Positions 35,463-44,716 of a stretch of DNA of 64,000 bases are shown here, piece after piece (position 1 is the stretch's first letter; every line of letters begins with the position of its first letter). Under the pieces are notes generated by a model, which did no database searches, had not been told where the DNA came from, and saw only the letters and a list, made by a program, of their open reading frames with translations. Where the stretch lies: assembly GCF_900188255.1 (NCBI RefSeq), contig NZ_FZNS01000001.1, positions 186,001 through 250,000 on the forward strand, written 5' to 3'. A program made the translations under genes and the position numbers. The DNA comes from Hymenobacter mucosus. Its GTDB lineage: Bacteria > Bacteroidota > Bacteroidia > Cytophagales > Hymenobacteraceae.

Positions 35463-36110
35463 TTATTCTTCCCGGCGCACGCCCTGGGAAATCGTGCTGT
35501 GACGTTGGCGGAGTACGTCTACCACGTCTTCCAGGCCTAAGCCCGCGGCGGTCAGTAGCACCAGCAAATGGTAAAGCAAGTCGGCCGCCTCCCCTTTCAG
35601 CCCGTCAATGTTGCCGCCTACGGCATCAATAACCGTTTCTACGGCCTCCTCACCCACTTTCTGCGCTATTTTGGGCATGCCCTTGCGAAACAACGAAGCC
35701 GTGTACGATTTGGCATCTTCCTCCGGAAACTGATGCCGACGCTGCACTAGGCGCTCCAGCTCGGCAATAAAGCTTACCGCCGGGGCGGGGTAGGCAGTTT
35801 GCCCCACCTGCTCGAAGCAGCTAGTAGTGCCCCGGTGGCAGGTTGACCCGTCGGGAATGGCCCGGATCAGCAGCGCATCCTGGTCGCAGTCTTCGTGCAG
35901 GCTCACCACGGTCAGGAAGTGGCCGCTGGTTTCGCCCTTGGTCCAGAGGCGCTGCTTAGAACGGGAAAAGAAGGTTACGCGTCCCTCCTGCTCCGTTTTA
36001 GTTAGCGCTTCCTGGTTCATGTACCCCAGCATGAGCACCTGCCCCGTGTGAGCGTCCTGCACAATTACCGGCACGAGGCCATCGGGCATTTTCTGAAAAT
36101 CGAGTTGCAT
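35463..36110 (-). CDS. hisIE: Phosphoribosyl-AMP cyclohydrolase / phosphoribosyl-ATP pyrophosphatase
   Basis: HisIE performs steps 2 and 3 of histidine synthesis. The 215-residue product has the HisI half with GYMNQEALTKT, RSKQRLWTKGETSGH and the zinc-binding DCDQDALL...STCHRGTTSCF, followed by the all-helical HisE half with LERLVQRR, SYTASLFRKGMPKIAQKVGEEAVETVIDA and EAADLLYHLLVLLTAAGL. It is the last gene of the operon, directly before a 30-bp-stem terminator. Confidence 0.96.
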   Translation of the reverse strand: MQLDFQKMPDGLVPVIVQDAHTGQVLMLGYMNQEALTKTEQEGRVTFFSRSKQRLWTKGETSGHFLTVVSLHEDCDQDALLIRAIPDGSTCHRGTTSCFEQVGQTAYPAPAVSFIAELERLVQRRHQFPEEDAKSYTASLFRKGMPKIAQKVGEEAVETVIDAVGGNIDGLKGEAADLLYHLLVLLTAAGLGLEDVVDVLRQRHSTISQGVRREE

Positions 36111-42322: not shown

Positions 42323-43174
42323 TTAGCTAATCATCTTCTCAATGGGTAGCACCAGAATGCCTTCGGCGCCGACGGCTTTGAGTTGGCCGGTGATGTGCCA
42401 AAAGTCGTCCTCATTTATAACCGACTGCACCGACACCCAGCCCTCTTCCGCCAGCGGAGTTACCGTGGGCGACTTGATACCGGGCAACAGGGCCTTCACC
42501 GCGTCAAGCGCCGCGGTGGGTGCATTGAGCAGAATGTATTTGTTGCGGCGGGCGCGGCGCACGGCCTGCATCCGGAACTGTAGCTGTTCCAGAATCTCTT
42601 TTTTCTCGGCGCTCATCTTCTGGTGGGCGATGAGAACGGCTTCCGAGCGAAACACGGTTTCTACTTCCCGCAGGCCATTACCGAGCAAGGTAGAGCCGCT
42701 GCTCACGATGTCGCAAATGGCCTCGGCCAACCCAATGCTGGGGGCAATTTCTACCGACCCGCTAATGGTATGCAAGTTGGCTTCTACTCCCCGCTCCCGC
42801 AGGTAGGCACCCAGGATTTCCGGGTACGAAGTCGCAATATTTTTCCCCTGCAGGTCTGCCACCGAGTCATACGCGGCAGCCCGGGGCACGGCCAAACTCA
42901 GGCGGCACTTGCTAAAGCCCAGGCCTTCAATTTCCAGGTGGGGCAAGCCCGCTTCCACGAGTACGTTTTGCCCAACGATGCCCAAGTCGGCCACCCCATC
43001 CTGCACGTAGCCGGGGATGTCGTCGTCGCGCAGGTAGAGAATTTCGAGGGGAAAGTTGGTGGCTTCGGTTTTGAGCTTGTAGCTGCTGCTCAGAAAGCTG
43101 ATGCCGCACTCCCGGATCAGGTTGAGGGAGTCTTCGCTAAGGCGGCCCGACTTCTGGATGGCAAGACGAATCAT
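42323..43174 (-). CDS. hisG: ATP phosphoribosyltransferase, long form
   Basis: HisG starts histidine synthesis by joining ATP and PRPP. The 283-residue product is the long form with its own C-terminal ACT-like regulatory domain (KSPTVTPLAEEGWVSVQSVINEDDFW), so no HisZ is needed and feedback by histidine is expected. Visible motifs are the N-terminal LAIQKSGRLSEDSLNLI, DLGIVGQNVLVE, and the PRPP loop ICDIVSSGSTLLGNGL. It is the first structural gene of the his operon and lies about 210 bases downstream of a histidine-rich leader peptide. Confidence 0.97.
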   Translation of the reverse strand: MIRLAIQKSGRLSEDSLNLIRECGISFLSSSYKLKTEATNFPLEILYLRDDDIPGYVQDGVADLGIVGQNVLVEAGLPHLEIEGLGFSKCRLSLAVPRAAAYDSVADLQGKNIATSYPEILGAYLRERGVEANLHTISGSVEIAPSIGLAEAICDIVSSGSTLLGNGLREVETVFRSEAVLIAHQKMSAEKKEILEQLQFRMQAVRRARRNKYILLNAPTAALDAVKALLPGIKSPTVTPLAEEGWVSVQSVINEDDFWHITGQLKAVGAEGILVLPIEKMIS

Positions 43175-43302
43175 GGGGTAGTAAGAAAGTAGCGAGTAAA
43201 AGACAGCTAGCGGCCACCCAACGGGGCACTCACTAGAAATTTGCTCAGGGGAAATAGTAGGAAGCGGTACGGCAAGCAGGACCCGAACGTTGGAACTGGG
43301 CC

Positions 43303-43357
43303 ATAAAAGGCCGGGGCCACCTGAGTGCGGGGGCCGGCGAACCTAGTGCGGCTCGCC
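43303..43357 (-). promoter_or_regulatory. his attenuator: antiterminator and terminator
   Basis: On the minus strand GGCGAGCC (43350-43357) can pair with GGTTCGCC (43336-43343), a 7-of-8 match. The second arm overlaps the 5' arm GCCGGCC (43332-43338) of a GC-rich hairpin whose other arm GGCC-cc-GGC (43310-43318) is followed by TTTTAT (43303-43308). The two structures exclude each other, the arrangement of a transcription attenuator, and they sit about 30-80 bases after the leader-peptide stop. Confidence 0.6.
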
Positions 43358-43387
43358 CAACGGGGTCAATATGATGCGTATATTCCT

Positions 43388-43426
43388 CTAGAAAGAGGAA
43401 TGATGCCCGCGATGATGGTGATGCAA
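43388..43426 (-). CDS. Histidine-rich his operon leader peptide
   Basis: A TTG-started frame of 12 residues reads (M)HHHHRGHHSSF and stops with TAG. Six of the eleven residues after the start are His, including a run of four. It lies between a promoter candidate (43525-43532) and hisG, which is exactly where ribosome stalling on His codons would sense charged tRNA-His. The stop codon falls inside a small hairpin ATTCCTC/GAGGAAT. No ATG is present in the frame and no ribosome-binding site is evident, so the TTG start is an assumption; upstream sense codons in the frame could belong to a longer peptide. Confidence 0.7.
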   Translation of the reverse strand: MHHHHRGHHSSF

Positions 43427-43699
43427 TACGCGCAGCCCGGCCGGGGCGCCACTACGAGGGGCAGCCAGCTGGCAGAGGGGGCTAAGGACTAATGCGGCGT
43501 AAAGCATACAGGCAGATTGCGAGGCAAATGTACGCGCCGGGCCGTAGGATGGAAACTTTTCAGGGAAAAATTTACCACAAAGGCAGACCTTTACGTTGTT
43601 CTAGTTCTCCAACCAGAAGTTGGCACCATTGTTTCAGGATGGCGGGAGACCCGTTTCTTGGCCTTGCTCACCTTCTGCTCACCACTTGTTGCGCTGCGT
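43427..43699. other. Divergent regulatory gap between his leader and the DUF2911 gene
   Basis: Besides the his promoter this gap contains the plus-strand promoter region of the DUF2911 gene: a TTTACGTTG near 43590 resembles the TAnnTTTG type with one mismatch. No other gene is supported here. Confidence 0.4.
43525..43532 (-). promoter_or_regulatory. his operon promoter (-7 element)
   Basis: The minus strand reads TACATTTG, a perfect TAnnTTTG, with GTTTCC about 18 bases upstream as a possible -33 element. Transcription would start near 43518, giving a leader of about 345 bases before hisG that contains the leader peptide and attenuator. Confidence 0.55.
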
Positions 43700-44716
43700 A
43701 TGTTTTCTATTGCCCGGTTTTCGGCTCGTCTGGGCCTGGGTCTGAGTATGGCTTTTGCATCAACGGCTGCCTGGGCCCAAACCACCCCTGCGCTACCAAC
43801 TGACACGGCCTTTGTCAAGCGTCCGGTGGCTACGCCGCCCGCCGCCCCCGTGCAGCCGGCTAGCCCCGGCGCGGGGGTACCCACGGCGCCCGCGTCCATG
43901 GCTAGTGCTCAGCCCGTTCAGCTGCCTCTACCCCAAGCAAGCCCCCACGCGGTGGTTACCCAAACGATAGGGTTGACGGAGGTAACGGTAGATTACCACG
44001 CCCCTGCCGTACGCAACCGTACCGTATGGGGTGGTTTGGTGCCCTACGACCAATTATGGCGGGCCGGCGCGAATGAGAACACCCTAATTCGCTTTTCAAC
44101 TCCAGTGGTATTACACGGGCAAATGATTCCGGGCGGGCAGTACTCCTTCTACGTGTTTCCCCACGCCGATAAGGAATGGGAACTGGTACTAAACCGCGTC
44201 ATCAACCACTGGGGCACCGAGAACTACGACCCTAAGGCCGACGTCATTCGCATTCCAGTAATGGCCGAGACGGCCCCATTTCACGAAACCTTGCTCTACT
44301 GGTTTTCCGAAATAAAGCCCACGGGAGCCCACTTAAACCTGACGTGGGAAAAGCGCACGTTGGTGCTACCCATCGAAACTGAAGTGCACAAGCAGGTTAT
44401 CAGCGGCATTGAGCAGGTACTACAGCAGAAGCCCGGCGACTGGCAGCTTCTTGCCCAGGCCGCCGACTACATGGTGCAAAACAATATCCAGCCCGAGCGC
44501 GCCCTCACGCTCATCAACGAGTCGCTGAAGCTACAGGACGCCGCCACCAACAACTGGATTAAGGCGTGCTTGCTGGCGCAGCAGCAAGATTTCGGGACGG
44601 CTGTGGTGTATGCTCGCAAAGCTATTAAGCTGGTAGATAAGGAAGATTCGACCGTAAAGAACCAGCTCCCTACCATGCGCATAGCCCTCACGGAGTGGCA
44701 GGCGAAGGCCTACTAA
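43700..44716 (+). CDS. DUF2911 secreted protein
   Basis: The 338-residue product has a signal peptide (MFSIARFSARLGLGLSMAFASTAAWAQ), a Pro/Ala-rich linker, and then the DUF2911 domain: SPHAVVTQTIGLTEVTVDYHAPAVRNRTVWGGLVPYDQLWRAGANENTLIRF, GGQYSFYVFP, WGTENYDPKADVIRI. The C-terminal 110 residues are helical TPR-like repeats (AADYMVQNNIQPERALTLINESLKLQD). DUF2911 proteins are common in Bacteroidota and have no assigned function. Divergent from the his operon; convergent with the TonB-dependent receptor gene. Confidence 0.88.
   Translation: MFSIARFSARLGLGLSMAFASTAAWAQTTPALPTDTAFVKRPVATPPAAPVQPASPGAGVPTAPASMASAQPVQLPLPQASPHAVVTQTIGLTEVTVDYHAPAVRNRTVWGGLVPYDQLWRAGANENTLIRFSTPVVLHGQMIPGGQYSFYVFPHADKEWELVLNRVINHWGTENYDPKADVIRIPVMAETAPFHETLLYWFSEIKPTGAHLNLTWEKRTLVLPIETEVHKQVISGIEQVLQQKPGDWQLLAQAADYMVQNNIQPERALTLINESLKLQDAATNNWIKACLLAQQQDFGTAVVYARKAIKLVDKEDSTVKNQLPTMRIALTEWQAKAY

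Follow-up and report, generated by a model that had tools for sequence, protein, structure and literature searches.

A conserved histidine-rich leader upstream of hisG in Hymenobacter mucosus and its relatives that may work without an ordinary intrinsic terminator

The his operon of Hymenobacter mucosus is preceded by a 39-codon leader frame rich in histidine codons. This leader probably ties expression of the operon to histidine supply through the progress of the ribosome that reads it, with the output set without an ordinary intrinsic terminator; judged from sequence comparison, we give this reading a probability of roughly 0.55. Histidine sensing through the leader His codons is its secure part and is strongly supported by conservation. 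Beyond this, we infer the response to histidine, the pause of RNA polymerase, the involvement of Rho, the direction of the switch and the roles of hairpins P2 and P3. The window, by which we mean the whole 64,000-nt stretch of DNA that was analysed, carries the operon on its minus strand. Pfam matches and operon order place hisG (42323..43174, minus strand) as the first of eight genes, hisG, hisD, hisC, hisB, hisH, hisA, hisF and hisIE, and the operon ends at 35463. HisC, HisH, HisA and HisF belong to general families in Pfam and take their names from operon order. The divergent neighbour (43517-44716, plus strand) encodes a DUF2911 protein.

The leader frame (43388..43507, minus strand) opens with ATG at 43507 and closes with TAG at 43390-43388, and when re-read and translated its 39 codons give MLYAALVLSPLCQLAAPRSGAPAGLRVLHHHHRGHHSSF. 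Six His codons are found near the 3′ end, four of them consecutive, in the cluster HHHHRGHH at 43423-43400 (minus strand), as the first-pass annotation had described. HHHH occurs only once across the six frames of the whole 64-kb window and a His-rich leader is present in 80 of 80 relatives, so chance is ruled out as the origin of this cluster upstream of hisG. Substitutions in the leader fall 43, 27 and 69 times at codon positions 1, 2 and 3, respectively, in 15 close pairs that are mutually non-independent. Together with the conservation, this bias makes the frame look translated. The first-pass annotation had started the leader at TTG 43426. This codon is rejected as the start; it is codon 28 of the frame from ATG 43507, and just two of the 28 loci, the window among them, have a start-like codon at this place before the His cluster. 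The proposed promoter box TACATTTG is indeed there, at 43532-43525 on the minus strand (43525..43532), with the leader ATG 17 nt downstream, and it fits the Bacteroidota −7 consensus TAnnTTTG as given in the part of PMC7366714 consulted. Of 96 loci, 81 have TAnnTTTG 0-60 nt upstream of an in-frame leader ATG, against 3.2% of shuffled 68-nt upstream stretches, a control that is not identical in form to the criterion for real loci. The lack of a visible Shine-Dalgarno sequence, which had been pointed out, is to be expected in the phylum, as PMC9723704 mentions. A second TAnnTTTG promoter just before hisG was found in 0 of 28 loci in the window's group. Elsewhere the last 75 nt before hisG hold TAnnTTTG in four of five Rufibacter loci (L059, L064, L066 and L071) and in all three Adhaeribacter loci (L050, L058 and L075), and GTAnnTTG in 23 of 40 stretches from a second family, f19.

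The relatives are the best 80 of 506 hisG loci and come from named genomes of Hymenobacter, Solirubrum, Pontibacter, Rufibacter and Adhaeribacter. Every one of these best 80 has a His-rich leader starting with ATG, at a distance of 92-252 nt from hisG, and the expectation that His runs would recur in related leaders is borne out. The His filter (HHH, or 4 His in 12 codons) is passed by 79 of the 80, and L036 has HHRH. Other Hymenobacter lineages (L028-L038, L040 and L041-L047) carry a different His leader, with HHHHHLWGAGLCAGC or HHHHHL, in which the His codons are directly followed by a GC-rich stretch that could fold into a long hairpin. The stop codon has changed place between these two leader forms of Hymenobacter.

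The subtype of the window, for which we coin the name type II his leader, is conserved in two families as far as sequence searches can tell. It is defined by a hairpin (H1) over the stop codon, a spacer of 13-15 nt, the motif CATATnG and a single copy upstream of hisG, and the window leader shows all of these features. The H1 pattern and the CATATTG stretch are each found in one place only in their own genome. Of 66 candidate sequences, 54 went into R1, a covariance model of the core. Among 390 genomes from the order, 101 gave a single R1 match; 50 of these belong to the window's family and 51 to f19. Across the phylum, R1 matches 5 of 296 genomes, all from the same two families; as R1 was built from these families and used with strict search filters, absence elsewhere means absence of the type II form. 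Among 73 loci from 72 genomes, 72 have hisG downstream in the same orientation; the stretch of the exception, L230, is 317 bases long and probably too short to reach hisG. A His leader is present in all 40 f19 stretches taken around R1 matches. With a filter of 3 His in 8 codons, which 14 of 15 f19 stretches pass, His leaders are rare in the order outside the window's family and f19 (6 of 58 stretches, 2/12 and 4/46; rates without shuffle control). Outside the order, a His leader is held by 32 of 40 stretches upstream of hisG, a non-random set drawn from the better-scoring of 122 hisG matches, with more divergent HisG left out.

Two alignments describe the core, A1 with 28 window-like Hymenobacter loci including the window, and A2 with 29 Pontibacter and Rufibacter loci. 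The order of elements is common to both: His codons, H1, a spacer ending in CATATnG, a C-run, a G-run, P2 and P3. H1 (ATTCCTC/GAGGAAT, 43382..43401, minus strand) spans the last codons and the stop and is seen in both alignments. It is kept even where the frame changes: L020, L025, L049, L058, L060 and L075 read through the 3′ arm and have the leader stop overlapping the end of this arm. Three f19 loci (L115, L116 and L119) have H1 with different, mostly matching stem letters. Covariation in H1 is thin, because the hairpin is nearly invariant in Hymenobacteraceae and HSS is encoded by its 5′ arm as well; both-sided changes amount to 5 cells in 2 pairs in the 54-sequence set, a pair count that 32 of 500 shuffles attain too. 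A switch between H1 and a terminator is possible in Adhaeribacter L050 and L058, where the 3′ arm of H1 can instead pair with a downstream copy, ATTATTCCTC, that has T's after it.

CATATTG (43367..43373, minus strand) follows H1 with 14 nt from the hairpin to its G, and this spacing is kept across loci. Among 78 type II loci with the motif, the distance is 14 nt in 66, 13 nt in 6, 15 nt in 3 and 18 nt in 3. The motif is missing in 19 of 97 type II loci, all of them from f19 (19 of the 40 f19 stretches). The letters between H1 and the G of CATATnG are variable despite the near-fixed length, and such a combination looks like polymerase geometry. CATATTG is our predicted pause position of RNA polymerase.

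Next comes CCCCGTTGGG (43356..43365, minus strand), whose C, G and C runs are kept in both aligned clades. Its G-run could pair with the preceding C-run or with the 3′ arm of P2. The same 10-mer, at 43365-43356, is found again at 43226-43217 (minus strand), near hisG and inside a weak terminator-like hairpin. P2 (GGCGAGCC/GGTTCGCC, 43336..43357, minus strand) shows both-sided changes in 6 of its 8 pairs in A1, with 80.4% of cells paired over the 28 loci. The GC-rich P3 (43315..43335, minus strand) has 92.3% of cells paired over the same loci and no U-tract after it. The named structure as a whole pairs 89.9% of cells in A1, with at most 57.9% in slid controls, and has both-sided changes in 8 pairs, a number that 0 of 500 shuffles reach. 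In A2, 87.1% of cells are paired and both-sided changes occur in 6 pairs and 17 cells. Here 59 of 500 shuffles also reach 6 both-sided pairs, and 6 pairs and 17 cells likewise result when the structure is slid by 2 columns, though with 40% of cells paired; paired cells and covariation score are above all 500 shuffles. The covariation comes mostly from P2 in A1 and from P3 in A2. Column-pair statistics without a structure gave mostly noise beyond P2. The P2 loop of f19 subset b (L215-L243), GATGAYAGGGATTC, is strongly conserved in about 13 of 14 aligned loci, L238 being different, and might be a candidate binding site.

The first-pass annotation had read P2 as an antiterminator and an overlapping GC-rich hairpin, of which P3 is the core, as the terminator. 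Both hairpins exist, and the mutual exclusion does not stand: P2 and P3 occupy adjacent alignment columns and form together in the minimum-energy fold (−34.3 kcal/mol). The extended 'terminator' register, when forced on the window, gives −29.1 kcal/mol, about 5 kcal/mol worse, and the GG it needs 2-5 nt after P3 is present in 20 of 28 loci. TTTTAT is where it was said to be (43308-43303), and its role as the U-tract of a P3 terminator is rejected; in the window fold it is the loop of a further hairpin, P4 (GGCC/GGCC, 43299..43312, minus strand), and the sequence after P3 is T-poor. A long-range partner for 43367-43357 was also considered, CCAACG..GGGTC at 43280..43293 (minus strand), with p 0.065 in the window. 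As a general antiterminator, the pairing GACCCcGTTGG:CCAACG..GGGTC was rejected, as it reaches p≤0.05 in only 10 of 28 loci and L027 and L029 pair differently.

From this anatomy we tentatively suggest that the two families have swapped the terminator for a ribosome-gated pause, in which H1 would arrest the polymerase and Rho or another factor would take the transcript unless a starved ribosome blocks H1. Transcription would start just after TACATTTG, and ribosome loading would take place very close to the 5′ end. Ample His-tRNA would let the ribosome clear the His codons and leave at the stop codon; H1 would then form behind RNA polymerase and hold it 14 nt further along, near CATATnG, and the transcript, now unprotected, would be lost, perhaps via Rho. 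When His-tRNA is scarce, the ribosome would sit on the last His codons. Since the last of these is at the base of the 5′ arm of H1, the starved ribosome would cover this arm, H1 would be blocked and the polymerase would continue into hisG. In the his pause of E. coli the spacer is roughly 11 nt, shorter than the 14 nt of type II, which counts against the pause model.

The main competing explanation is classical attenuation through a terminator that is weak, or shifted by lineage, and that our criteria miss in GC-rich sequence. Here the stalled ribosome would favour an antiterminator, and a downstream hairpin would terminate transcription when histidine is plentiful. We consider it rather unlikely for type II, although textbook His attenuators are common in Bacteroidota. 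Among the His leaders outside the order, 26 of 32 have a canonical terminator and 22 of the 29 tested have an antiterminator duplex with p≤0.05, so the classical design is not unusual for this phylum. It is also found in f19, where the type I loci L120-L124 have a hairpin of −12.0 to −16.3 kcal/mol followed by six to nine T, and a possible antiterminator encoded in the leader; its energies come without shuffle control, unlike those of the antiterminator duplexes outside the order. L120 has two adjacent His only, does not pass the His filter and was left out of the terminator counts. Further support for this rival comes from Hymenobacter. In group A, which is GC-rich and makes for a weak test, a terminator-like site is found in 12 of 28 loci against 25% in shuffles, five of these 12 sites lie 109-120 nt after the stop codon, and the mean terminator score is 13.8 against 6.6 shuffled. 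In group A, T is also more frequent at about +85 to +95 than in the preceding GC-rich stretch, and at 112-116 nt beyond the stop six loci (L006, L010, L015, L019, L022 and L039) show a hairpin carrying T3 to T5. Part of the genus may thus have a weak terminator. The other groups are not separable from shuffles (B, 5/11 with 49% in shuffles; C, 5/7 with 57%; D, 2/3 with 27%), and 4 of the 11 group B loci show, 60-62 nt after the first base of the stop, a hairpin whose tail is rich in U and C. The window has a weak terminator-like site of −13.6 kcal/mol with tail TGTCTTTTA, about 30 nt before hisG, which may not be a conserved one.

Against classical attenuation, the AT-richer type II loci are nearly all without a canonical terminator. 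It is found in 1 of 40 f19 leaders, 2 of 24 in Pontibacter and 0 of 5 in Rufibacter, where shuffled sequences give 1.5%, 2.5% and 8%, respectively. Adhaeribacter has 0 of 3, but L050 has a longer hairpin with six T, which the scan misses because it was limited to hairpins of 46 nt. T's do not follow P3 either, as at least four T in the 8 nt after it are found in 1 of 28 loci, and the window is not that one. The genome does have strong terminators, at 5 of the 20 gene ends examined; these include the 3′ end of the his operon (−29.3 kcal/mol, TTTTTCGTTTTT, with TTTTT), while the remaining 15 ends have a weaker terminator, no T-tract or none. Masking the 5′ arm of H1 in the consensus folds of two f19 clades brings out little as an alternative partner for the 3′ arm: one clade gains a weak helix of four pairs with the C-run, and the other gains no helix. 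The 'complete' classical attenuator of the first-pass annotation is not supported, as neither a U-tract terminator nor the exclusive pair it described was found, and a His leader with output set in another way remains our preferred reading.

Control at the level of hisG translation or mRNA stability is an improbable form for that output. The leader ribosome would reshape the RNA such that initiation, or survival of the message, occurs only under histidine shortage. This would agree with the short distance of about 100-130 nt between leader stop and hisG in Pontibacter and many f19 loci, and with the f19-b consensus fold, where TTCCAT of the leader pairs with ATGGAA at the hisG start. That pairing is absent in the f19-a consensus fold, however, CAT codons complement ATG by nature, and the element of the window ends about 125 nt before hisG. 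Least credible of all is a real leader that is a degenerate, non-regulatory relic in this strain, with expression set by the promoter alone; it would fit the fact that no canonical terminator is recognised beside the leader, but H1, its spacing and the His codons are conserved over two families and the codon-position bias is retained.

Some leaders from outside the order (L270-L273 in family f23, and L278 and L281 in f42) are likewise His-rich and without a canonical terminator. Terminator-poor forms of the his leader may have more than one origin; the phylum-wide matches of R1 all fall in the window's family and f19. In the two type II families, the sensing half of the attenuator is kept and the terminator half is unrecognisable in most loci examined. 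The classical version survives in one of them, f19, so a side-by-side comparison of the replacement is possible. If our reading is true, attenuation through a leader peptide would here do without a terminator, and a terminator-bearing counterpart still exists in one family. It would test ribosome-polymerase coupling in Bacteroidota, with their unusual promoters and no Shine-Dalgarno sequence. R1 provides a searchable model for an RNA element absent from Rfam, whose cis-regulatory families include His_leader, T-box and Bacteroid-trp; at the gathering score only a tRNA matched in the window, and at E≤1 nothing matched at the leader in 11 related loci.

Leader-peptide attenuation is a textbook case of transcription-translation coupling and has been studied mostly in Proteobacteria. 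The proteobacterial his attenuator (Rfam His_leader, which we take to be RF00514) has a short frame with a His run just before the first his gene and a hairpin at the end of the leader. Type II is alike in its His-run frame before the first his gene and in the hairpin at the leader end, and differs in having no Rfam match, no U-tract terminator beside its hairpins and no exclusion between the proposed antiterminator and terminator. Type I His leaders of Bacteroidota (L120-L124 and 26 loci outside the order) are alike in place and codons, and probably in the sensing step. They have a hairpin with a T-tract and, in most of those tested, a matching antiterminator, whereas the window type has H1, the 14-nt spacer, CATATnG and P2/P3.

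Within the phylum, PMC9723704 describes hints of leader peptides for amino-acid operons, and a structured 5′ element of hisG, in Flavobacterium psychrophilum and other Flavobacteriaceae. This element shares with ours the phylum, the gene and the lack of an Rfam match; its anatomy is not given in the section consulted, and we presume it to be of the classical type. Short leader frames are described for Bacteroides thetaiotaomicron in part of PMC7366714. Bacteroid-trp RNA (RF01692), in the relevant part of PMC2864571, is likewise a candidate cis-regulatory RNA of Bacteroidetes; by name it belongs to the trp and not the his operon, and our leader does not match it. A hisG element is named in PMC9723704 and was not found in the parts consulted of PMC4833913, PMC7366714 and PMC2864571. 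The terminator-poor type II form was found neither in Rfam nor in the papers searched for his attenuation in Bacteroidota. As far as these sources extend, classical His attenuation has been published in part for Bacteroidota, and the terminator-poor type II form appears to be new. A comparable case is the topAI upstream frame of E. coli, whose control reportedly includes a Rho step. Ribosomes that stall in this short frame determine how strongly the genes behind it are expressed (PMC12121999). The stalling gate would be alike if the pause model is true; His-tRNA, not antibiotics, would be the signal, and Rho would be a presumed partner here.
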